The notes under the pieces were generated by a model. The model did no database searches. It had not been told where the DNA came from and saw only the letters and a list, made by a program, of their open reading frames with translations. DNA of 20,714 nt. Origin: a virus. Positions 2,668-19,061 of the stretch are shown piece after piece. The stretch spans positions 1 through 20,714 of the IMG/VR virus record IMGVR_UViG_3300020473_000160. One strand, written 5' to 3'. The translations under genes and the position numbers were made by a program. The first letter of the stretch is position 1. Each line of letters opens with the position of its first letter.

Positions 2668-3307
2668 CGTTCGTTTGATTTCTGTGACTCCTGACGCAGA
2701 GAAAACTATTGGTTATGTTGCTAGGGTATCCAACCCCAACAATCAGGACAACCCAAAGGTTGCTGGACTATTAAAGTATTGTATTAAACATGGACACTGG
2801 AGTGTCTTTGAGCAAGCACACATGACTGTAGAGATATCAACTACAAGAGGTCTTGCTGCACAGATATTAAGACACAGATCATTTACATACCAAGAGTTCT
2901 CTCAGAGGTATGCTGATAGTAGTATGTTATCAAAGGAGATTCCTTTACCAGCATTACGTCGTCAGGATACAAAGAACAGACAGAATAGTATTGATGATAT
3001 AGATCCATTGATGCAACAAGACTTTGAAATTAAAATGCAAAGACATTTTGTCGATGGAATGAAATTATATAAAGAGATGCTTGATGCTGGTATTGCAAAG
3101 GAGTGTGCTAGGTTTGTACTCCCTCTTGCTACACCGACCAAATTATACATGACAGGTAGTATTCGGTCATGGATTCACTATATAGATTTACGTTCTGCAC
3201 ACGGAACGCAAAAGGAACACATGGATATTGCGGAGGCATGTAGGGATATATTCATAGAACAATTCCCTATCACTGCTGAAGCATTAGAATATGTACACAC
3301 CCAATAG
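2660..3307 (+). CDS. thyX: FAD-dependent thymidylate synthase ThyX
   Basis: A flavin-dependent thymidylate synthase that methylates dUMP to dTMP using methylenetetrahydrofolate and NADPH. The family signature RHR-x7-S is present: Arg71-His72-Arg73 and Ser81, followed by QRY. The conserved C-terminal block with IRSWIHYIDLRS and a nearby HGTQKEH (residues about 166-186), which contacts nucleotide and flavin, is intact. The length of 215 is normal. ThyX replaces the T4 td enzyme in most cyanophages and supplies thymidine for replicating an AT-rich genome. The ATG overlaps the upstream gene by eight bases. Confidence 0.97.
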   Translation: MTNVRLISVTPDAEKTIGYVARVSNPNNQDNPKVAGLLKYCIKHGHWSVFEQAHMTVEISTTRGLAAQILRHRSFTYQEFSQRYADSSMLSKEIPLPALRRQDTKNRQNSIDDIDPLMQQDFEIKMQRHFVDGMKLYKEMLDAGIAKECARFVLPLATPTKLYMTGSIRSWIHYIDLRSAHGTQKEHMDIAEACRDIFIEQFPITAEALEYVHTQ

Positions 3308-3550: not shown

Positions 3551-4320
3551 TGCCAAGAGCTAGAAAGAAATCCAATGGTAATGGTAATGGTAATGCACCA
3601 TTGCAACCAATGTCTAAGAAGATGATGAAGAGGAAAAAACCAATTGATAAGTCATATATGACTGAGATCAAACCTCTTACTGACAATCAAACAGTTGCGT
3701 TTGATGAGTATAAGAAGGGGAAGAATCTTCTGTTGCATGGTGCTGCTGGTACAGGTAAGACATTTATTATGCTTTACCTAGCACTCCAAGAAGTATTAGA
3801 TGAGGTATCACCTTATGAAAAAATATATATTGTAAGGTCACTTGTGCCTACTAGAGAGATTGGATTTCTTCCTGGTGACCATGAGGATAAGTCATACCTA
3901 TATCAAATACCTTACAAGAATATGGTGAGGTATATGTTTGGGATGCCAGATGACAATTCATTTGAGATGCTATATGATAACTTACGAACGCAAGAAACAA
4001 TTGACTTCTGGTCTACATCTTTTATCAGGGGTACTACTCTTGACAATGCTATTGTTATTGTAGATGAATTCAGTAACTTGAATTTTCATGAATTAGATAG
4101 TATAATAACAAGAGTAGGTGAAGACTCTAAGATTATGTTCTGTGGTGACATCACTCAGACAGATCTAACAAGAGAAGCAGAGAAGTCTAAGATATCAGAC
4201 TTCATACAAATTCTTCAGGAGATGAAGGACTTTGCTTGCATTGAGTTTGGCATAGACGACATCGTAAGGTCTGGTCTAGTCAAGCAATACTTAATAACAA
4301 AATACAATCTTGGTTTCTAA
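3550..4320 (+). CDS. phoH: PhoH-like P-loop ATPase
   Basis: A PhoH-family NTPase of the superfamily 1 helicase-like fold. Walker A is GAAGTGKT at residues 64-71, Walker B is IVIVDE at 168-173, and the following GDITQTD segment (199-205) matches the sensor region of the family. The N-terminal 35 residues are basic and of low complexity, with an Asn-Gly repeat encoded by a six-base tandem repeat. phoH is very common in marine phages and is placed in the Pho regulon in E. coli, but its phage role is not established. Proposed roles are RNA metabolism or response to phosphate stress. No Pho box is evident upstream, because the gene is embedded in the cluster. Confidence 0.95.
   Translation: MPRARKKSNGNGNGNAPLQPMSKKMMKRKKPIDKSYMTEIKPLTDNQTVAFDEYKKGKNLLLHGAAGTGKTFIMLYLALQEVLDEVSPYEKIYIVRSLVPTREIGFLPGDHEDKSYLYQIPYKNMVRYMFGMPDDNSFEMLYDNLRTQETIDFWSTSFIRGTTLDNAIVIVDEFSNLNFHELDSIITRVGEDSKIMFCGDITQTDLTREAEKSKISDFIQILQEMKDFACIEFGIDDIVRSGLVKQYLITKYNLGF
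3574..3595 (+). repeat. AATGGT tandem repeat coding an Asn-Gly run
   Basis: The six-base unit is repeated about 3.7 times in the first codons of phoH, encoding an Asn-Gly run in a basic disordered N-terminus. It is likely length-variable by slippage in multiples of two residues without loss of frame. Confidence 0.7.
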
Positions 4321-5001
4321 ATGAGTTTCACCTTCGTCAATGATCCTATCGTACCGATAGATGTTGAACCTGTTAACAAGGATGGAGTACGGTTCTACCC
4401 TATTCCTGGTGCTGATAAATACTATCCGAGTGTTACCTCAATCACATCGTTTAAGAACGCAGCATTCTTCAGTGCATGGAGAAAGAAAGTAGGTGAGCAT
4501 GAGGCTAATCAAATCACTGCTAGAGCAACTCAAAGGGGTACTGCCTTTCATAGTATCACTGAGGATTATATTAAAGATAAATTAAATCTTGAAATATACT
4601 TGGAAAATAATCCATTATCTGTTAGAATGTTTCAGTCGGCCAAGACCACTCTTGATCGCATTGATAACATTCACTGTTTGGAGACCTTCCTATACTCACA
4701 TTACCTTGGACTTGCTGGTCGTGTAGACTGTATTGCAGAGTTTGATGGTGAGTTAGCAGTAATTGATTTTAAAACCTCCACTAAAGAAAAGAAGGAAGAT
4801 TGGGTTGAACATTACTTTGTTCAAGAAACTGCATACGCAGCAATGTTCCTAGAACTCACAGGTATTGAGGTAAAGAAAATTGTCACACTCATTGCGGTTG
4901 AAGATGGATCTGTTCAAGTATTTCAGAAGTACAATCTTGATGACTATCTACAACTACTCAAATCCTACATTGAAGACTTTGTTAGGGGGCAAAATGCCTA
5001 A
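4321..5001 (+). CDS. PD-(D/E)XK exonuclease (MGME1/RecB-like)
   Basis: A 226-residue nuclease of the RecB/Cas4/MGME1 branch of the PD-(D/E)XK superfamily. Visible catalytic landmarks in order are RGTAFH with His77, GRVD with Asp136, IDFK with Asp149 and Lys151, and QETAY (Gln168, Tyr172), the Q-x3-Y motif of the RecB-like group. It probably degrades or trims DNA ends during replication, recombination or host DNA breakdown. No Fe-S cysteine cluster of the Cas4/AddB type is visible. It starts directly after the phoH stop and lies in front of gp33 and gp32, the place where T4 has the helicase loader 59. It does not resemble gp59. Confidence 0.9.
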   Translation: MSFTFVNDPIVPIDVEPVNKDGVRFYPIPGADKYYPSVTSITSFKNAAFFSAWRKKVGEHEANQITARATQRGTAFHSITEDYIKDKLNLEIYLENNPLSVRMFQSAKTTLDRIDNIHCLETFLYSHYLGLAGRVDCIAEFDGELAVIDFKTSTKEKKEDWVEHYFVQETAYAAMFLELTGIEVKKIVTLIAVEDGSVQVFQKYNLDDYLQLLKSYIEDFVRGQNA

Positions 5002-5248
5002 AGAAAACGTATTAGAAGATAAGTTTCTAACCCCTACTAAATTCTCTCAAGAAATTGAGAGACTAGTACACGAAAGTAATGGTTTAATAACTTACATTGA
5101 AGCAGTAGTAACATACTGTCAAGAGAAAGAGATTGAATTGGAAACAGTACCTAAACTGTTAGCTAAACCTCTCAAGGAAAGGTTGAAGTATGAAGCTCAG
5201 AGATTAAATTATATGAAGCAATCATCAAAAGGAGTATTACCTTTATGA
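4994..5248 (+). CDS. 33: Late promoter transcription coactivator gp33
   Basis: An 84-residue acidic/basic helical protein. The segment at residues 32-75 (ITYIEAVVTYCQEKEIELETVPKLL and on) follows the pattern of T4 gp33, where a YLEA helix is followed by a short acidic helix, a Pro-turn and a final long helix. Gene order supports it: T4 has 33 two genes before 32, as here. gp33 binds the RNA polymerase beta-flap and links it to the sliding clamp at late promoters, of which this window has several. The start at ATG 4994 overlaps the exonuclease end by eight bases; a longer frame from 4880 would lie inside that gene. The T4 C-terminal flap-binding LDFLL is not present; the tail here is GVLPL. 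Confidence 0.78.
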   Translation: MPKENVLEDKFLTPTKFSQEIERLVHESNGLITYIEAVVTYCQEKEIELETVPKLLAKPLKERLKYEAQRLNYMKQSSKGVLPL

Positions 5249-8324: not shown

Positions 8325-9248
8325 TTAGTAACCTCCGTATCCTCCACTAGAAGAACTTGATGAACTAGAGGAACTAGATGATGAAGAACTACTACTGCTA
8401 CTGCTGGTACTTGTTGTACTGGTGGTAGCAGTTGTTGTAGATGTGGTAGTATTACTTGCAGTAGATGTAAATGCTACTGATGGTGCTGTAACTGTTGTTT
8501 CTTCTCCAACCTTTATTATTGAACTACCTGGTCCATTATCATAAGAGGTTACAACTCCTAATTCGACTTGATTACTTACACTAGCACTAATATAACCTCT
8601 AGTGTCTATGAATCTTTGTGCTACGCTTAATTCTGTCTTCTTATTATTCTGATCATCTAATTCTGAATGTGGTTCATATGCAACTAAATTGGCAAATTCG
8701 TCAGTAATCATATTTGTCAATTGTCCTGTAGGAATTCTTATAAGTCTCTTCATATCGTTTTCATACGATTCGTGTTCATAATTACTTACTGGATATATTG
8801 ATTCCTCTGATGTCTTAGTTGTTCCGTCTGGTAATACTGCTCTAAATGTGGAATTGACCTCTATACCTCTTTTAATGAAAACTATATCATTGTACAGTAT
8901 TTCTTTAGTTTCGTAATGATGGACTTGATCGGAATCTGTGTATTTTTCCTCGCAGTAGTTTTGAAGTTCAAATTCGGATTTTGGCCATTGTTCATATACA
9001 TCTGTAATGTTGTTTACAAGAAGTATTACCCAATCAAGTCCAGAACTGCCAAGTACTGCTAATGCAAGATCTGAAGGTTTAATCCCATCTGGGATAGATG
9101 AGGTTTCAAACAGAGTTGTGTATTTTTCAAGATCATCTCTGATTTTGCATCTTCTGAAAATATTCTTAACAAGGCGATATTTGAAACTTTCATCGTCTGT
9201 AAGACCTTCTCCAATATAGGTATTTGGTAATTGTGAAAAATATGCCAT
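8325..9248 (-). CDS. 53: Baseplate wedge protein gp53 with Ser/Thr-rich tail
   Basis: The N-terminal 110 residues match T4 gp53: MAYFSQLPN, a block KNIFRRCKIRDDLEKY, and the SSGLDWVILLVNNI motif (about 68-81) followed by EQWP. gp53 is a baseplate wedge subunit that bridges neighbouring wedges when the baseplate closes around the hub. T4 gp53 is 196 residues; here there are 307. The extra part includes a Thr/Ser-rich segment from about 258, a run of 20 Ser (282-301) and a GGYGGY end, which looks like a flexible and possibly exposed tail. It is the second gene of the leftward pair and starts two bases after the gene 48 stop. Confidence 0.85.
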   Translation of the reverse strand: MAYFSQLPNTYIGEGLTDDESFKYRLVKNIFRRCKIRDDLEKYTTLFETSSIPDGIKPSDLALAVLGSSGLDWVILLVNNITDVYEQWPKSEFELQNYCEEKYTDSDQVHHYETKEILYNDIVFIKRGIEVNSTFRAVLPDGTTKTSEESIYPVSNYEHESYENDMKRLIRIPTGQLTNMITDEFANLVAYEPHSELDDQNNKKTELSVAQRFIDTRGYISASVSNQVELGVVTSYDNGPGSSIIKVGEETTVTAPSVAFTSTASNTTTSTTTATTSTTSTSSSSSSSSSSSSSSSSSSSSGGYGGY

Positions 9249-10380: not shown

Positions 10381-10800
10381 CGTTATAAGCGAGGAAAATA
10401 CTTTCCCAAGAAACCTAATAAGTATAAAGGTGATTATCGTAATATAGTCTATAGGTCAGGGTGGGAACTTAAGTTCATGAAATTCTGTGATTATAATTCT
10501 TCTATTACTGAATGGGGTAGTGAAGAAATTATTATTCCTTATATTTCACCTGTTGATGGTAAACGTCATAGATACTATCCAGATTTCTATGTTAAAACTA
10601 ACGGTAAGAAGTATATCGTAGAGGTTAAACCATCAAGACAGACTAAAGAACCAAAAACGCAGAAAAAGGTTACTAAAAAGTATATAAATGAAGTTGTCAC
10701 TTGGAGTGTCAACAATGCAAAGTGGAAAGCAGCAACCGAGTTTTGCAAAGATTATAATATGGAGTTTATGATCATTACAGAAAAGGAGCTTAGAGTATAA
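10378..10800 (+). CDS. 4: Head completion nuclease-like protein gp4
   Basis: A 140-residue protein matching T4 gp4, which completes packaged heads before tail joining. It shows a PD-(D/E)XK pattern of the TnsA/gp4 type: Glu30 in YRSGWELKFM, Asp69 in YYPDF, and Glu82-Val-Lys84 in IVEVKPS. This implies a DNA-end-processing or structural nuclease fold acting at the portal. The first 20 residues are very basic. T4 gp4 is about 150 residues. Its TAA overlaps the gene 54 ATG (TAATG). Confidence 0.88.
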   Translation: MRYKRGKYFPKKPNKYKGDYRNIVYRSGWELKFMKFCDYNSSITEWGSEEIIIPYISPVDGKRHRYYPDFYVKTNGKKYIVEVKPSRQTKEPKTQKKVTKKYINEVVTWSVNNAKWKAATEFCKDYNMEFMIITEKELRV

Positions 10801-11717
10801 TGCCTTGGCGTTCAGACATACCACATAAACAGCAAGCTAGATCGGGATATCCAAGTTTGCAGGAGATGATGGCATTTTCCTTAAAGGATAAGGATTATTC
10901 TCCAGCTTCGACTAATTTATTTACAATACACATTGTAACACCAGCGTTATTAAAAAACTGGCAGGCAAGAGATGGGCAAGGTGGTCATATAATATCAGAT
11001 ACTATTGGATATAGAGATTCAACATTTATGCCTGATGCAGGTGGTAAAGGTGGACTATTAGGTAAATGTTTAAATTTTTATTGTCAAACTATTAGTATAC
11101 CAAGTAAACAGGTTACAACTGGTTCACTTGTTAATATAGGTACTGCAACTAAGTATGCTACAGGATCTGCTTTCAGTCAAATTTCTGCAACCTTTATTTC
11201 ACCTAAATCTCAACATAGTAGAAATTTCTTTGAAAGATGGATACAATTGATGGCTCCTGATGCTAATCAGTATAGTGATTATTATGATTATTATAATGCT
11301 CCTAGAATGATGATTTTTAAATGGGAGAAAGGTGGACAACGTGAAGAACCTTATACATTTGAAACTAGAAATCAAAATGCAAAGATAGAAGGATGGAATC
11401 CTAATGATAGACATCCACAGAAAGCATTTAATTATAAGTTAACTGCTAGTTGGGAGATGCAACAGGCATTTCCTTATAATCTAGGATCTACTCAGTTAAA
11501 TAACTCAGCAGCACGTGCTATGACGTTTACAGTAGGATTCTTCTTTGAACGTTATAGATTCTATACAGCAAGTCAATTTGACGAACCTGGTATAAGAACA
11601 CAAATCTCTATTCCTGGAATGGGATCACGAGATGATGATTATTATGATCCTCTCGTTGATGCTCAACAGATATTTGGTTCTGTAGACGCAACACAAAAAT
11701 CCCTCGGAATATGGTAA
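10800..11717 (+). CDS. 54: Baseplate tail tube initiator gp54
   Basis: It matches T4 gp54 (320 residues; here 305), which binds the gp48-capped baseplate and nucleates the gp19 tube. The protein has an N-terminal polar segment, a tube-like beta domain with CQTISIPSKQVTTG (around 98-111), FERWIQLMAP (about 141-150) and a Tyr-rich stretch YSDYYDYYNAP, then WNPNDRHPQKAFNY and the TVGFFFERYRFY block near residue 240-252. Gene order 48-4-54 across a short space supports the assignment. Expected location is the virion, at the baseplate/tube interface. Confidence 0.85.
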   Translation: MPWRSDIPHKQQARSGYPSLQEMMAFSLKDKDYSPASTNLFTIHIVTPALLKNWQARDGQGGHIISDTIGYRDSTFMPDAGGKGGLLGKCLNFYCQTISIPSKQVTTGSLVNIGTATKYATGSAFSQISATFISPKSQHSRNFFERWIQLMAPDANQYSDYYDYYNAPRMMIFKWEKGGQREEPYTFETRNQNAKIEGWNPNDRHPQKAFNYKLTASWEMQQAFPYNLGSTQLNNSAARAMTFTVGFFFERYRFYTASQFDEPGIRTQISIPGMGSRDDDYYDPLVDAQQIFGSVDATQKSLGIW

Positions 11718-11963: not shown

Positions 11964-12674
11964 ATGCCATTACCTACATTAAGTGTACCTAAGTACAAAC
12001 TGAAACTGCCTTCTGATGGCAGAACTGTCAATTTTAGACCTTTTCTTGTAAAAGAAGAGAAATTGCTACTTTTAGCAACTGAGACAGGTAGTCAAGAAGA
12101 TATTGTTACTGCAATTAAAAATATCATTACTGAATGTACTGATATTCATGATATTGATGATCTCCCAACTTTTGATATTGAATATGTCTTTCTTCAAATC
12201 CGTACCAAATCTGTTGGTGAGGCTGTTGAGGTTAATGTGACATGCCCTGATGATGGAGTAACGGAAGTACCTGTTAAAATACCTTTGAATGAAATTAAAG
12301 TCAAAAAAGACAAGAAGCATAAGAAGGATATTAAATTGGGTGACGATATTATCTTAACTATGAGTTATCCTAGTTTGGATACATTTGTTCAAATGAACTT
12401 CCAAGATGAAGAACCTACTGTAGATTCTGTTTTTGAAATGGCAGCAGGATGCGTAAAGCAAATTGCTGATGCTGAACAAGTATATGATGCGTTAGATACT
12501 CCTAAAGAAGAGATGATGGAATTCTTTGAGCAGTTGAGTAGTAAGCAGTTTCAAGAAGTTCAAAATTTCTTTGATACTATGCCTAAACTATCTCATACTG
12601 TTAAGGTTACTAATCCTAAAACTAAAGTTGTAAGTGACATAGTTCTAGATGGATTAGCATCTTTTTTCGGATAG
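11964..12674 (+). CDS. 26: Baseplate hub subunit / tail assembly chaperone gp26
   Basis: It belongs to the T4 gp26 family (T4_baseplate, Pfam PF12322). The hallmark near the N-terminus is FRPFLVKEEKLLLLATETGS (residues 25-44), followed by a helical segment, a beta sandwich-like region with CPDDGVTEVPVKI, and an acidic C-terminal helical region. The length of 236 compares with 208 in T4. gp26 is needed to build the central baseplate hub. The C-terminal codons GCA TCT TTT TTC GGA TAG contain a -1 slippery heptamer in the right phase, and the -1 frame continues into the gp51-like sequence, so a longer form of about 300 residues may be produced. It lies just before the giant tail proteins, like chaperones in other long-tailed phages. 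Confidence 0.88.
   Translation: MPLPTLSVPKYKLKLPSDGRTVNFRPFLVKEEKLLLLATETGSQEDIVTAIKNIITECTDIHDIDDLPTFDIEYVFLQIRTKSVGEAVEVNVTCPDDGVTEVPVKIPLNEIKVKKDKKHKKDIKLGDDIILTMSYPSLDTFVQMNFQDEEPTVDSVFEMAAGCVKQIADAEQVYDALDTPKEEMMEFFEQLSSKQFQEVQNFFDTMPKLSHTVKVTNPKTKVVSDIVLDGLASFFG
12662..12668 (+). promoter_or_regulatory. Putative -1 ribosomal frameshift site (T TTT TTC)
   Basis: The heptamer X XXY YYZ is present as T TTT TTC with the gene 26 frame reading TTT TTC GGA TAG. Slippage by one base would decode TTT TTT CGG ATA GCT and enter the gp51-like frame. Only GGA lies between the slip site and the zero-frame stop. I see no strong downstream hairpin; an ATGGA upstream (12649-12653 region) is a weak candidate for an internal Shine-Dalgarno-like stimulator. 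Confidence 0.6.
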
Positions 12675-12865
12675 CTCTACTCCATCAAAATTTACAAACC
12701 TTCTATGAAGTTAATTTTGCACTTATGCACCATCATAAGTGGCCATGTGATTATATTGATAACTTGATTCCCTTTGAAAAAGAGATCTATATGAATCTCT
12801 TAATGAATTATCTTAAAGAAGAAAACAGGCGAATGGAGGAGAGCCAGAGGCAACAACAAAAGTAG
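12671..12865 (+). CDS. 51: gp51-like baseplate hub assembly / chaperone extension (no ATG; probable frameshift product of 26)
   Basis: The frame from 12638 to TAG 12865 is open and encodes a compact helical sequence with the layout of tail assembly chaperone extensions: LLHQNLQTFYEVNFALM, HHHKWPCDYIDNLIPFEKE, then a charged Glu/Arg/Gln tail. The region 12671-12865 gives 64 residues. No ATG, GTG or TTG precedes the conserved-looking part; the first ATG (12725) would remove 18 residues of it. Candidates are initiation at ATA 12671, which overlaps the gene 26 stop, or fusion to gp26 by -1 frameshift at 12662-12668 (my preferred reading). T4 gp51 acts catalytically in hub assembly. Its position, directly between gp26 and the giant tail proteins, fits a G-T type chaperone. 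Confidence 0.72.
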   Translation: MALLHQNLQTFYEVNFALMHHHKWPCDYIDNLIPFEKEIYMNLLMNYLKEENRRMEESQRQQQK

Positions 12866-12877
12866 CATTAATCAATA

Positions 12878-15800
12878 GTGGCAAATAAATTTACACATAA
12901 GTTTGTAAATGCTGGAGTAAAGGGTAAACTTACACCAGCACTTTTTGCTGCAAGGAAATCTATTACTGCTACTAATAGGATAGGTAATACAATAGCTAGT
13001 ATTGGTAATGTCGCATGGGATATTAGGCAAATTGCTGTTAAATCAGCAGCAAATAAAGTACTAGCAGAACAGGCACAAAGAAGGAGAGAGCAAAGAGAAA
13101 GAGACCAAGAAGCTGAAGAAGCAGCAGAACTGGATAAATCGTTACAATCGAAAACGGCACAGAAACCAACCTCTAAGCAGAAAGGTATTGCAGGAAAGTA
13201 CTTTGGTTGGTTAAATGGGTTCCTTAGACCTATAGTAGAATTTTTTGGTTGGTTAATTAAGGTTACTCTCATTAAGAAGATTCTTAATTGGCTGCAAGAT
13301 CCTGAGAATAAAACAGCGTTAAAAACATTTTTAGAGAGATTTACCTTTGTTGTAAAGAAATTATATAGTTTTGTTAGTTGGATTGTAAAGGATAATATTC
13401 TTGATGGACTCGCAGATCTGTTCGGAGCTGGTGGTGAAGACGGTAAGGATTCATTCTGGGATAGAGTAAGAGGACTAGGTAAGCTCATGTTTGGGCTTAC
13501 CATGATGCGATGGTTGCTCAATCCATTTGCAGCAGTAACTGATATTGTAGGGTTACTTGATTTTATAATGAATTGGCGATTGCCACCGTTGAGGATAAAA
13601 GGATTAAAGAGGCTTTGGGGTAGACGGATAAAGAAAGGATTTAATGCACTTCGAGAGAGTAAACGTCTGAAGAAGATGGTTCAAACCATCAAGAAATTCG
13701 GCAGACCCATAATGAAGCCGATTAAGTTCATTGGGAAGCAGTTTCAGAATTTTAGGAAGGGTTTTAAGGGTGTAACAAAGGCAGCAGATATTGCTAAGAC
13801 GACTAATACGTTATTTCCTCATATAGCATCTGGTTCTAAGAAGGGTAGTAAGGCATTTGAGGCTGGAAAACAAGTTAGGCAAACTCTTAAAAATTTCTTT
13901 GGACCTGGAAGTAAGTTTGGTAATTTATTAAACAAATTACCTTTTAAAAATTTCCAAGTTCCTAAACCAATGAAGCCAAACCTTTTTGGTAAGGCATTGA
14001 GTAACAGGTGGAAAAAGGCTGTTGATGGGATTAAATCTGGTGTCAATACTATTGGTAAGTGGGGTAGTAATGGATGGGATTATCTAAGTAAACTTCCTAA
14101 AAAGCAATTTGATAAAGTTTCTAAGAGATTCCTTGAACCTGTATGGAAACGAGTAAAGCCTATTGAGAAACAGGCTCGGAGATTAATGGATCCATTTAAT
14201 AATGCGGTTAAAAATTCTCCTGTTGGTAAGCTTGTTAGAGGTGCAGGAGCAAAGAAAGTAGGTGCTTCAAGATTAAAGGATATACCTCTTTTAGGTTCTC
14301 TTGTTAATTTTTACTTTGCTGTTGATTCATTTAAGAATGGTGATACTGTTGGTGGTGTATTAGAGTCTATTGCTGGTGCAGCAGAATTAGCTGGTTATTT
14401 GGTACCAGGTGCTCAAGCGTTAATACCTGCTGGTGTTTTAATAGATCTATATTTACTTTCTAGAATTATTCCTGGTGGTGTCGGTGAATCTATAATGGAA
14501 TGGGAGAGAACTAAAGCGATTCCAGGAATGTCTAATCTGTTTGAAGGTGCTCTTGCAGGTACTAAGGGTACAGTTCAAGCTGCTAAAACACAGATAAGTA
14601 AAGCATTTGATGGTATTAATAAATGGATTGGTGCTGATAAAGAAGCACAAAAAACAAAGCATATAACTGAAGGTCAGGGTGATGGCTCTGGAATGTCCAA
14701 AGAGGAATCTGATTTTAAATCAGGTGATGGTAAAAAGGAGAAAAAAGGTCTTTGGGGTTGGCTCTTTGGAAAGAAAGAGAAGAAGAAAACATATTCATAT
14801 ACCGCAGCACATGGTACTTCTGAATATGGAGACCACGATGATTCTGATTATGCAATAGAAAGTGAAGCACATGAATGGGGACCAGATGGTCAACCTAGTG
14901 CAAGTAAACAAACTAAGAAACCTTGGTGGAAGTTATGGGAGAAAGGTGGTTATCCAGTTAAAGGTGCAGGTGGATCATTCTTTCTTGGTGGTCTAGCTAA
15001 AGGTATTGGAAAGGCATTTGGTGGGATAGGTAAAGCAATTGGTGGTATAGTTAGTGGTATTAGTGGTGCTATTGGTGGCATCATTAATACAGTAAAGGAT
15101 GTTTTAGGTGGTCCATTAGGACAAATCTTGATGATGGCATTACCAGTAATGTTCCCTGCTGTTGCTTGGTTGGGACCAGTATTGAAAGGTATTAATGCTG
15201 TTATGGCATTGGCAAGTGGTGACCCATTAGGGGCCATAATGTCTCTGTCTGGTGCATTTAGCAGTATTAATACTGTTAACGCCATAGCTATGCCTAAATG
15301 GATGCAATCCATGAGGTTCAGTAAGTTTGGTAACTTTATGGCAAACTTGAATGGACCAGGTGGATTCTTAAGCACTAAGATGGGTAAGATTGGTGTAGGG
15401 ATACTTTCTGGTAACTATGGTGCTGCATTTAATGCTGCTATTGATGGTACATCTTTAGGTGCTAGTTTGGCTAACCTTGGTAATAAAGTTGATGAATTAG
15501 GACTCGGAGGTATCCTTGGAGCCATACCAGGCTTAGGACCAACCCTACAGAATATGGGTCTTGGTGATGTTGTTGGAATTTCAAGTCTATTAACAGGTGA
15601 TTTCTCTGCTGCTGGTTTCATTACTGGTATGGCAGAAAAGCATGGTTATGGTGGACTTGTTAAGGCAGCTCTTGGTATGGTCGGAGGTAACTTTGAACAG
15701 GGTATGATAGATCTCGCTGCTGAAATGGGTGTAAGTCCTGAAATGTTTGGTGTTATCGATACATTACAAATGTTAAGGGAAGGTGGTGAATCAGAGAAGC

Positions 15801-15961
15801 AAAAAATTATGCAAGAGATTGGAAGTATATCTGTTGTTAGTTTCCCTGTTGTTGTTCAAAAACTTCTATCAATTCCAACACCAGTTGGAGTTGAGACTGG
15901 AGGTGGAGGTGGCTCCAGTGGATCTGGTGGACTTCTAAGTCGATTGGGATTTGGTAAATAA
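12878..15961 (+). CDS. Giant tail protein 1, probable tape measure or hub protein (1027 aa, GTG start)
   Basis: The start is GTG at 12878, 12 bases after the gp51-like stop and without a Shine-Dalgarno. Residues 55-90 form a charged coiled coil (Arg/Glu/Gln-rich). Residues 105-220 form a helical block with ILNWLQDPENKT at 135-146 that is also present in the following gene. There follow basic repeated helices (220-430), a hydrophobic helical part (480-530), a charged Lys/Gly linker (590-680), GGYPVKGAGG near 690, and a long Gly/Ile/Ala-rich hydrophobic region (695-800). The end is a Gly/Ser-rich tail. Size, hydrophobic Gly-rich helices and location after the chaperone genes fit a tape-measure protein or other hub-filling protein; cyanophage annotations often say only virion structural protein. 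Specific orthology to T4 gp28 or gp29 cannot be shown. Confidence 0.7.
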   Translation: MANKFTHKFVNAGVKGKLTPALFAARKSITATNRIGNTIASIGNVAWDIRQIAVKSAANKVLAEQAQRRREQRERDQEAEEAAELDKSLQSKTAQKPTSKQKGIAGKYFGWLNGFLRPIVEFFGWLIKVTLIKKILNWLQDPENKTALKTFLERFTFVVKKLYSFVSWIVKDNILDGLADLFGAGGEDGKDSFWDRVRGLGKLMFGLTMMRWLLNPFAAVTDIVGLLDFIMNWRLPPLRIKGLKRLWGRRIKKGFNALRESKRLKKMVQTIKKFGRPIMKPIKFIGKQFQNFRKGFKGVTKAADIAKTTNTLFPHIASGSKKGSKAFEAGKQVRQTLKNFFGPGSKFGNLLNKLPFKNFQVPKPMKPNLFGKALSNRWKKAVDGIKSGVNTIGKWGSNGWDYLSKLPKKQFDKVSKRFLEPVWKRVKPIEKQARRLMDPFNNAVKNSPVGKLVRGAGAKKVGASRLKDIPLLGSLVNFYFAVDSFKNGDTVGGVLESIAGAAELAGYLVPGAQALIPAGVLIDLYLLSRIIPGGVGESIMEWERTKAIPGMSNLFEGALAGTKGTVQAAKTQISKAFDGINKWIGADKEAQKTKHITEGQGDGSGMSKEESDFKSGDGKKEKKGLWGWLFGKKEKKKTYSYTAAHGTSEYGDHDDSDYAIESEAHEWGPDGQPSASKQTKKPWWKLWEKGGYPVKGAGGSFFLGGLAKGIGKAFGGIGKAIGGIVSGISGAIGGIINTVKDVLGGPLGQILMMALPVMFPAVAWLGPVLKGINAVMALASGDPLGAIMSLSGAFSSINTVNAIAMPKWMQSMRFSKFGNFMANLNGPGGFLSTKMGKIGVGILSGNYGAAFNAAIDGTSLGASLANLGNKVDELGLGGILGAIPGLGPTLQNMGLGDVVGISSLLTGDFSAAGFITGMAEKHGYGGLVKAALGMVGGNFEQGMIDLAAEMGVSPEMFGVIDTLQMLREGGESEKQKIMQEIGSISVVSFPVVVQKLLSIPTPVGVETGGGGGSSGSGGLLSRLGFGK

Positions 15962-15986: not shown

Positions 15987-18900
15987 ATGGCAAGTATCCA
16001 GAAGTCATCAAAAATTAATATGTACAAGTTCGTCAATATTGACGATCAAGGTGCATCTGCGGATCCTGTTGCCAAAAGTATTAATGTACAGACTAGTGCC
16101 ATTAATAATATGGGTAAAACCATTAATGGTATTGCTGCAACTGCTGTAACTTTAAAAAATCTTGCTCTTCATAGATTAAATGAAGAAGAGAAAGCAGCAC
16201 GAGAAAAGTTTAAACCCCAATATACAAAGCAAAGACAAAATCCATTTAAATCTTTAATGCTTAATATTAAGGCATATAAAGTTAAGGGATTCTTAGAGAG
16301 TATGCTTTCATTCTTAGGAAGTTTACTTAAAATATTCATTATTAGACCAATATTAAATTGGTTGTCGAATCCAGAGAATAAAACAAAATTAGTTGCGATA
16401 TTAGAAGGTACTTGGAAGGTATTAACTTGGATTACTGATTTTCTTGGTAGTCAGTTTGTTCATGCTATAAATGAGCTGCATGATGTTCTGAGTGGTGAAA
16501 CTAGTGTTTGGAAAAAGGTAACATCATTTACTAAACTTTGGATTAAATTTGCTGCTGGATTTTTAGCCATCAAGTTCTTAAGAAATCCAGTTAAACTCTT
16601 AAGATCTGTAGCAAATGTTGGCAAGATGCTTGCCATCAAAACAAAATTAGCGAAGGCACAATTAACTAAGAGGAAACAATTCTTAACTGGTGGTAAATGG
16701 GCTAGAGGTAAATGGTTACTTGGTGGTGCTGTTGGTGCAACTGTATTATGGCAATTTGCTAATTGGGCGTTAGGTAAGAAGGAAAACGAAGAACAAGGTG
16801 ATGATAGTACTCCCAATGCTTCGGGAGGTGGTGATAGAAGTAAAGATAGGGCATTCTCTATACAGGAGTATGGTGAAGATCTTACTACTGCTATGTACGA
16901 TTCGTTAGGATTAAAAAATCCTAATGAGAAGGATGATAAGAAGAAGAAGAATATGTGGAACCCGAAAAATTGGTTCGGGGGTAAAAAGGAGAAAGAATCT
17001 AAGAAGGATGGTGAAAGTCCTAATCCATTAGGCGTTCTTGCTGGAATGTATACGGCAAATAAACAGTTTGAACATCTGCTTAAGACATTTAAGGAAGAGA
17101 GTTCAGAATTTGGCAGTAAGATGAATGATGCTGATGGTAGTGGTAAAGCAGCATTAATGCTTAATCTTGCTGCTACACTTGAAGGTGCATTGGGTAGTAA
17201 AAACCAGATGTTCCAGCAACTTCAGATGCAGACTCAGAATCTTGTTGAAAGTGCTGGAAAAGTTTCTAGTGGTGATAAGACTAGTATTGGTGAATTTTTA
17301 AAATGGGCAGGACATGATGTTCAATCTAGAGAAGAAGGTGGTCCAATTGGTTCTTATGAAAATGGTGGAAAGTGGTTAAATGGACCTAATAGTGGATACC
17401 CTGCACATCATGACGGGAATCCATTAATTGCTCACGGGTTAGAAGGATTGTTTACTAAGCCTGGTAGTAAGGATGGATTTATAGTACCATTTGATAATGC
17501 TGCAACTAGAAAAGATCCATCGTTAACTATGGTGAGGTTAGCACAAGCTAAGAAACTTGGATTTAAAAATGGACCACCAGGATTTGAGAAAGGTGGTTTT
17601 AATCTATTTAATCCGATGTCTTGGTTTGGGGATAAGAAAGCACAGACATTTATGAGAGGTGCTCATGGAGATAGAAATGTACAAATTCAAGGAAGTGGAT
17701 TAGCAGCTCAAGTTGGTCGTAACCGTCAAAATTTAAATGCTATTATGCAAGAGATGGGATATGCTTCTCCTCATGGTAATTACGCTCTTGGTGGTCCACT
17801 TGGAGTGCAAAATCTTAAGGATAATAAGACATATAGAATATCTCAGGATAAAGGATACTTTGAAAAATCTAAAGTTAAATCTGGTGGAGGAGGTAATTGG
17901 TTCACCAATATGTTTAAAGGTTGGGGTGGTGATAAAGGAAGTGGTGGTAACTGGGGATTAGGTGCAAACTTTGGGCAACAATATCAAGAACCTGGTTCAG
18001 GTGGATTAGGATTAGTACAAAGATTGGTTGCTTCTCATCGTGGAGATGAACTAACTTCAGCATTACTAGCAAGAACAATCTTTAATAGAAAGGCTGCTAT
18101 TGATAAGACTGGTAATTCCCAAATGTTTAAAGCGAAGAGTGGAAGTTTCCATGATATATTACATGCACCAGGTCAGTATCCTAATGTAGAAAGTGGTAAG
18201 ATAAAGGGTACATTCTCTAATTCTGAGTTGAATGCTGCTGGTAAAGCTATGAAGTTAGCAAAAGAAGCACATAAACTTAAAGAACGTTTAACTGAAAGTG
18301 GACTAGATCCAGCTAAAACACAGCAATTAATGACTGCTACCATATTTAAACCTGGTTCTGGATTAAATAAAGGTGGATTAATGGGGTTACTTACTGGTGG
18401 TGGTGGAGTTAGATTTGGTAAATATACATTCCAGAATAAACCATCCAATGCTATGAATGCTTTGATGGGTGGAATGAATCCATTGATGATGAAAGGTATG
18501 ATGACTATGATTAGTAATCTAGTCGGAGGAAAGAAAGATGGTGGATTTGGTAAAGATCTTATTATGACACTTGCTAGTGGAATTATAGGTGGTGGATTTG
18601 GAAAAGAGGGAGGTAAAGGTGGTGGAATGATGGATGCTTTATTTGGAATGTTTGGTATGCCTACTAAGAGAGGTGGTCAAAAGGATAAGAAGCAATCTAT
18701 GTCTGGTGGTTTAGGTCAAGTACTACAGAGTGTATTTGGTGGTAAAGGTGGAAAGGATAAGAAAGAAGAAAGGATGGAGTTTAAGAAGAGAGAGAATGAA
18801 AGACATAGACAGATAATGAAGTATGAAGCATCACAGCAGAAACGTAATATCATGTCTAGATTGCATGACCAAGCTAGTCAAAATGCTAGAGAGATTACAT

Positions 18901-19061
18901 CTGCTGTTAATGCATCCAATAAATCTGCTGCTAGTCAGGCAAGAATGGGTGCAGAAGCTGTTGCTAGATTATCTCAAGCAGCACAACAACAAAAAGGAAA
19001 TACCTTTATGAGTGTCTTCAAGTCAATAGCAACCCAACTAAGTTCATCTAAGAAAAAATAG
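15987..19061 (+). CDS. Giant tail protein 2, paralogue of tail protein 1, with SleB-like segment (1024 aa)
   Basis: Residues 100-205 repeat the helical block of the preceding gene (PILNWLSNPENKT at 121-133), showing shared ancestry. Next come a charged Lys-rich linker (310-345), a helical part, and a Gly/Asn/Pro-rich block at about 448-530 (GGPIGSYENGG, NGPNSGYPAHHDG, VPFDNAATRKDPS). Residues 676-734 (RGDELTSALLARTIFNRK through ILHAPGQYPNV) resemble the SleB-type cell wall hydrolase fold, with Glu688 in the position where a catalytic acid could lie. A Gly/Met-rich hydrophobic stretch (800-920) and a charged coiled coil (about 925-1000) end the protein. It is probably inside or at the tip of the tail tube, with possible peptidoglycan-cutting activity. 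Hydrolase activity is inferred only from pattern. Confidence 0.7.
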   Translation: MASIQKSSKINMYKFVNIDDQGASADPVAKSINVQTSAINNMGKTINGIAATAVTLKNLALHRLNEEEKAAREKFKPQYTKQRQNPFKSLMLNIKAYKVKGFLESMLSFLGSLLKIFIIRPILNWLSNPENKTKLVAILEGTWKVLTWITDFLGSQFVHAINELHDVLSGETSVWKKVTSFTKLWIKFAAGFLAIKFLRNPVKLLRSVANVGKMLAIKTKLAKAQLTKRKQFLTGGKWARGKWLLGGAVGATVLWQFANWALGKKENEEQGDDSTPNASGGGDRSKDRAFSIQEYGEDLTTAMYDSLGLKNPNEKDDKKKKNMWNPKNWFGGKKEKESKKDGESPNPLGVLAGMYTANKQFEHLLKTFKEESSEFGSKMNDADGSGKAALMLNLAATLEGALGSKNQMFQQLQMQTQNLVESAGKVSSGDKTSIGEFLKWAGHDVQSREEGGPIGSYENGGKWLNGPNSGYPAHHDGNPLIAHGLEGLFTKPGSKDGFIVPFDNAATRKDPSLTMVRLAQAKKLGFKNGPPGFEKGGFNLFNPMSWFGDKKAQTFMRGAHGDRNVQIQGSGLAAQVGRNRQNLNAIMQEMGYASPHGNYALGGPLGVQNLKDNKTYRISQDKGYFEKSKVKSGGGGNWFTNMFKGWGGDKGSGGNWGLGANFGQQYQEPGSGGLGLVQRLVASHRGDELTSALLARTIFNRKAAIDKTGNSQMFKAKSGSFHDILHAPGQYPNVESGKIKGTFSNSELNAAGKAMKLAKEAHKLKERLTESGLDPAKTQQLMTATIFKPGSGLNKGGLMGLLTGGGGVRFGKYTFQNKPSNAMNALMGGMNPLMMKGMMTMISNLVGGKKDGGFGKDLIMTLASGIIGGGFGKEGGKGGGMMDALFGMFGMPTKRGGQKDKKQSMSGGLGQVLQSVFGGKGGKDKKEERMEFKKRENERHRQIMKYEASQQKRNIMSRLHDQASQNAREITSAVNASNKSAASQARMGAEAVARLSQAAQQQKGNTFMSVFKSIATQLSSSKKK

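Follow-up and report, generated by a model that had tools for sequence, protein, structure and literature searches.

A conserved slippery heptamer and a candidate programmed −1 ribosomal frameshift at the gene 26/51 junction of T4-type phages

We identified a probable programmed −1 ribosomal frameshift at the junction of genes 26 and 51 in a genome fragment of 20,714 nucleotides from a marine T4-type phage (IMG/VR record IMGVR_UViG_3300020473_000160), referred to below as the window. With high confidence we propose that the junction yields a gp26-gp51 fusion in addition to the short gp26, and that the two products act as long and short tail-assembly chaperones. An earlier note, made from the letters of this DNA, had suggested such a fusion, and the comparison with relatives presented here supports it, as the slippery heptamer is kept in nearly every relative and no start codon of gene 51 is conserved. 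We regard the frameshift as nearly certain because the heptamer is conserved at this one site while other Phe-Phe pairs seldom have the same form. Features of the junction, of its relatives and of the corresponding genes in T4 and lambda are described below.

Organization of the junction in the window

The elements that make up the junction are as follows.

11964-12674, plus strand: gene 26, encoding the short product (236 aa), a T4 gp26-type baseplate hub/tail-assembly chaperone N domain (PF12322, E=2.1e-74; phrog_150, E=3.7e-85)
12638-12667, plus strand: stretch of the open −1 frame that precedes gene 51 and lacks a start codon
12648-12653, plus strand: site of a Shine-Dalgarno-like element some 10 nt ahead of the heptamer; the window has a weak form (GATGGA), and most relatives have GAGG or AAGG
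12662-12668, plus strand: slippery heptamer T TTT TTC in −1 phase, kept in 164 of 165 loci
12668-12865, plus strand: gene 51 reading frame, 65 codons and a stop, −1 relative to gene 26; the predicted C-terminal extension of the long product (phrog_634, E=1.4e-25)
12672-12674, plus strand: TAG stop of gene 26, one codon past the heptamer

The 3' end of gene 26 reads GGA TTA GCA TCT TTT TTC GGA TAG, and the heptamer lies in it in the −1 slippery phase that the earlier note had described, with TTT (12663-12665) and TTC (12666-12668) as its frame-0 codons. Both encode phenylalanine, and gp26 proteins almost always retain this Phe-Phe pair (F234 and F235). The −1 frame stays open from 12638 until its stop codon at 12863-12865. 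Its earliest ATG, GTG or TTG, the ATG at 12725, falls some 20 codons inside the conserved region of gp51; the claim of a long open frame with no early start codon thus held, as did the fusion length of 300 residues (235 from gp26 plus 65). The frame had been called chaperone-like and assigned to gp51 in the earlier note, and its match to phrog_634, 'baseplate hub assembly catalyst', identifies it as a real gp51 relative. A weak second match (E=0.0087) falls at the far end of phrog_150 (positions 238-281 of 282), which is explained by T4 gp51, a fused protein that matches phrog_150 over positions 13-280. In a Pfam profile search gp26 matches PF12322 only, and the gp51 frame has no match.

In the proposed mechanism, ribosomes that do not slip would stop at the TAG at 12672 and release gp26. 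We infer that a minority of ribosomes move back by one base on T TTT TTC, a sequence that lets tRNA-Phe re-pair in both sites, and these would make the 300-residue gp26-gp51 as a minor product. The short and long chaperones would then hold the tape-measure protein while the tail and hub are being assembled, like lambda gpG and gpGT.

Shifty heptamers are not rare in the window, where 25 loose XXXAAAN or XXXTTTN heptamers occur in phase in 6508 codons and three others are located near gene ends. One genome alone is therefore modest evidence, hence the comparison with relatives. A separate observation concerns a glutaredoxin-like gene (872-1111), in which A AAA AAT lies in phase three codons ahead of the stop. 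The following gene (1111-1458) lies in the open −1 frame relative to it, but has its own ATG.

Conservation of the heptamer and of the gene 51 frame

We compared 165 loci from IMG/VR and isolate genomes, with gp26 identities of 30-100%. An in-phase heptamer is present at the same gp26 site, two phenylalanines after a conserved glycine, in 164 of these (T TTT TTC in 149 and T TTT TTT in 15). The conserved phase anticipated by the earlier note is thus found across the relatives, and the loss of the heptamer in close relatives with an intact gene 51, which the note had named beforehand as refuting its proposal, is confined to at most the single locus that lacks it. Isolates with the same arrangement include Syn9, P-HM2, S-TIM4, S-CRM01, VH1_2019, DLP6 and phiN3. 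The distance from the heptamer to the stop of gene 26 is one codon in 135 loci, zero in 18, and two to eight in 11, with the position of the heptamer unmoved. Collapsing near-duplicates at 95% identity gave 122 clusters, 121 of which retain T TTT TTY. If codons were drawn according to their usage in these genes, T TTT would precede the second phenylalanine in all 121 with a log10 P of about −49, or about −9.7 for the 27 clusters formed at 60% identity, with clusters treated as independent in both calculations.

The near invariance of F234 and F235 raises the alternative that the T run is kept for the sake of the protein sequence and that the −1 overlap is incidental. However, T TTT TTY is found at 121 of 121 junction sites; among 137 other Phe-Phe pairs of these genes, used as an internal control, it occurs at 2. 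The codon ahead of the heptamer also occurs in eight kinds (AGT, TCT, AAT, GAT, GCT, ACT, GGT and CAT), so that the residue changes yet the final T is constant. This codon control contradicts protein constraint alone, and we assign the alternative next to no probability. Equally improbable is a sequencing or assembly error that split one fused gene. Poly-T runs are error-prone in some sequencing methods, and T4 gp51 is a fusion in one frame (see below), but 164 loci share the arrangement, as do isolate genomes that come from many laboratories, and all three stop codons are represented among them.

Downstream of the heptamer, the −1 frame is open for at least 55 codons in all 118 clusters that are not cut by a contig end; three further clusters (L020, L025 and L028) run off the contig while still in this frame. 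Over codons 3-20 the mean entropy is 1.08, 0.80 and 1.48 bits at codon positions one, two and three, which is a coding-like pattern. The −1 frame therefore looks protein-coding directly after the slip site, ahead of any start codon.

Gene 51 could instead encode a separate small protein with its own initiation, whether ribosomes reinitiate once past the stop of gene 26 or start at a non-standard codon. Some relatives have an ATG that overlaps or closely follows the stop (TAATG in Vibrio phage VH1_2019, S-CRM01 and several IMG/VR loci), and an ATG is present within 30 nt in the −1 frame in 69 of 121 clusters, making separate initiation possible in some relatives. In contrast, 38 of the 121 clusters (31%), including that of the window, lack ATG, GTG and TTG in the 30 nt past the slip site, and this agrees with the earlier note's expectation that gene 51 has no conserved start. 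Annotated gp51 starts in GenBank are scattered, at +2 (S-CRM01, VH1_2019), +5 (S-RIM44, DLP6), +8 (S-B68), +11 (phiN3), +14 (S-TIM4), +50 (Syn9, a TTG), +53 (S-IOM18), +56 (Melnitz-1) and +92 (P-HM2), and some of them cut into the conserved domain. The heptamer is in phase regardless of start codons, and is present in all these isolates whatever start was annotated. Moreover, in T4 the gp51 sequence is fused to a gp26-type domain. We rejected separate initiation on the inconsistent start positions and on the 31% of clusters with no nearby start codon, and consider it quite unlikely, though less so than the two alternatives above.

A programmed frameshift would also explain why gp51 is missing or has scattered starts in databases, since gene finders behave in this way when a gene has no start codon. 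The gene is unannotated in the GenBank records of S-MbCM6 and AS-szw, and the GenBank records in our set (L172-L180) either give inconsistent starts (+2 to +92) or omit gp51, and need a joined CDS. Re-annotation with a joined gene is implied for many cyanophage records.

Sequences flanking the slip site

Relatives of the window likely carry two kinds of stimulator, an upstream Shine-Dalgarno-like sequence and, in two lineages, a covarying hairpin. A Shine-Dalgarno-like core is located about 10 nt before the heptamer in 107 of 121 clusters, compared with 65.5 ± 5.1 expected from codon-sampled controls in which the amino acids are kept. The motif starts mostly at −14 and −13, and the excess arises from the use of GAG over GAA at the Glu codon preceding Gly. 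In E. coli dnaX, −1 frameshifting is known to be stimulated by a Shine-Dalgarno-like sequence placed similarly far upstream. The window is an exception among the clusters, as its upstream element (GATGG) is weak.

The RNA 5-60 nt past the heptamer has a mean folding z of −1.33 relative to shuffled sequences, compared with −0.22 and −0.37 for control stretches. No one consensus structure was found for all relatives. In the MAH-motif lineage (21 loci), an 11-bp stem starts 5 nt past the heptamer and has 86% of its cells paired. Its covariation is 0.151, compared with 0.108 in shuffled alignments, and 1 of 500 shuffles scored as high; this signal rests on one pair, observed in UA, GC and AU forms, where the third base of an Ala codon tracks a base in a different codon. 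The other lineage (31 loci) has a 5-bp hairpin, GRTCC-loop-GGAYC, with 94% of cells paired and a covariation of 0.282 compared with 0.179 in shuffled alignments (0 of 500 as high), consisting mainly of A-U/G-C alternation that involves the third base of an Asp codon. In both lineages the hairpin is 5-10 nt downstream of the heptamer (columns 13-43 of alignment A1 and columns 18-31 of alignment A2). We consider these hairpins likely to be real, as putative stimulators, and grade them no higher because the shuffles ignore relatedness and the stems were chosen from the same sequences in which they were tested.

No strong hairpin is present in the 42 nt after the heptamer of the window, nor is a strong hairpin shared within its own lineage. 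A perfect 8-bp hairpin (CACTTATG ... CATAAGTG) is found farther downstream, at 12722-12745, about 60 nt past the slip site. These loci, in which helper elements change around an unchanging slip site, would provide a good natural experiment on the determinants of frameshift rate.

Correspondence to T4 and lambda genes

T4 gp51 (249 aa) has a PF12322 domain at residues 1-201 (E=3.9e-52) and a C-terminal part with a match to phrog_634 (E=1.2e-23). T4 gp26 is also a PF12322 protein (E=8.8e-64). Because both the PF12322 domain and the phrog_634 part occur in one protein, T4 gp51 is, by domain content, a gp26-gp51 fusion encoded in a single frame, with T4 gp26 as the short form. The two parts of the product predicted from the window match the same families (PF12322, E=2.1e-74; phrog_634, E=1.4e-25), such that gp26 is homologous and the fused gp26-gp51 corresponds to T4 gp51 domain by domain. 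T4 differs in having two divergently transcribed genes and no slip site where the window has one locus with a frameshift. Its gene 26 ends GAG TTC TTT GAG TTA CTA TAA, which lacks the heptamer, and the −1 frame stops at once. In our T4 locus (L082), gene 26 is at 3803-4429 and gene 51 at 4480-5229, and duplication thus stands in place of frameshifting. Whole-record searches found PF12322 twice in T4 and once in each of 11 further T4-type records, two of which (G001 and W09, with the same length and the same match) are probably one phage, and one of which (W08) is the exceptional Vibrio phage D504. A separate full-length gp51 as in T4 is absent from the 20.7-kb genome fragment analysed here, which has the 65-codon frame with no start.

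Sullivan et al. (2010, PMC3037559) noted that gp51 of cyanophages and marine vibriophages lacks the first ~200 residues of T4 gp51. A gp26-gp51 fusion would supply these residues and explain the puzzle.

The Vibrio phages D504 (L089, near position 3076) and K369 (L181, near position 1476) have CTT TTC AAG TAATGG at the junction, with no heptamer and with an open −1 frame whose ATG overlaps the stop. By their sequences, these phages may have replaced frameshifting with reinitiation. Neither D504-type nor Aeromonas gp26 returned any loci in scans of viral contigs. A tentative picture, which we consider slightly less likely than not, is that T4-type phages obtain a short and a long chaperone in three ways, namely by poly-T frameshifting, by duplication (T4) and possibly by stop-start reinitiation (D504 and K369), and that the frameshift is ancient, with a nearly immutable slip site and helper elements that turn over between lineages.

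The earlier note knew of no description of a frameshift in the T4-type gp26/gp51 pair. One very probably exists, in the study of tail chaperones of T4-like phages by Vladimirov, Gautam and Davidson (2022, Virology 566:9-15; PMID 34826709). The PRFect paper (PMC10885494) credits that study with finding a short and a fused long tail-chaperone gene in some T4-like phages, and PMC12846349 credits it with reporting that TAC-N genes in T4-like phages carry poly-T −1 slip sites. According to these two attributions, the genes, the short and fused long architecture and the poly-T slip sites are the same as those described here, and the core of the frameshift finding has therefore very probably been published in principle. 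In the literature searched, which covered Vladimirov et al. through the papers that cite it, we found no description of how widely the arrangement occurs among marine cyanophage-type loci, nor of the upstream element, the hairpins of the two lineages or the Vibrio exception. A tail chaperone frameshift that uses GTTTTT has been described in Vandenendeviridae and Andersonviridae (PMC12846349), which are other phage families with another slip sequence.

We assign gp26 and gp26-gp51 as putative short and long tail-assembly chaperones from published work on T4, the position of the genes, the pairing of a short with a long form and earlier studies, rather than from a fold match. The frameshift supports the same roles for T4 gp26 and gp51, which have long been called hub assembly proteins of unclear function.

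Frameshift-made tail chaperones are a known kind, and the lambda G/GT pair (Levin et al. 1993; Xu et al. 2004), encoded in the gene order G-T-H, is the classic case. The window resembles lambda in having two overlapping frames, a probable −1 shift near the end of the first frame and a large ORF next downstream, with a short major and a long minor product expected. An in-phase heptamer is present near the end of the first frame, and the second frame is open across the junction with no conserved start codon. However, the slip site is T TTT TTC in the window and G GGA AAG in lambda, and no sequence relation was found: lambda G and T belong to PF06894 and PF06223 and gp26 to PF12322, and neither lambda profile matches gp26 or the gp51 frame.

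In separate structural models, gp26 has a mean pLDDT of 85 and gp51 of 79. A helix is modelled at the end of gp26 (231-235) and another at the start of gp51 (3-6), and these could form a single helix across the junction. A fold search of the PDB with the gp26 model listed the HK97 tail-assembly chaperone 2OB9 twice, fourth and eighth, with non-significant scores (E=0.52 and 1.5; prob 0.25 and 0.20) whose prob values are the highest of the search list. The same search with the gp51 model gave nothing meaningful, and sequence searches found no relatives of solved structure.

The gene order was said by the earlier note to mirror lambda, with gp26 and gp51 preceding tape-measure-like proteins. The position matches, but the 1027-aa ORF downstream of gene 51 has no match to a tape-measure profile, and the comparison stands as an analogy. 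Identification of the downstream gene through the T4 family PF25671 failed, as this family was found in T4 only. The large gene that lies downstream in phiN3 and DLP6 matches tape-measure profiles weakly (E of about 1e-4 to 1e-5). Two adjacent ORFs of about 1025 residues in the window (12878-15961 and 15987-19061) have PHROG families in common, some of them labelled endolysin, and no tape-measure profile match. Upstream, a tail tube-type gene (phrog_45) is located at 10800-11717, two genes before gene 26. On the minus strand, positions 8325-9248 encode a gp53-type wedge protein (PF11246, E=6.6e-6) with a long C-terminal tail that is Ser/Thr-rich, then poly-Ser, and ends in GGYGGY.
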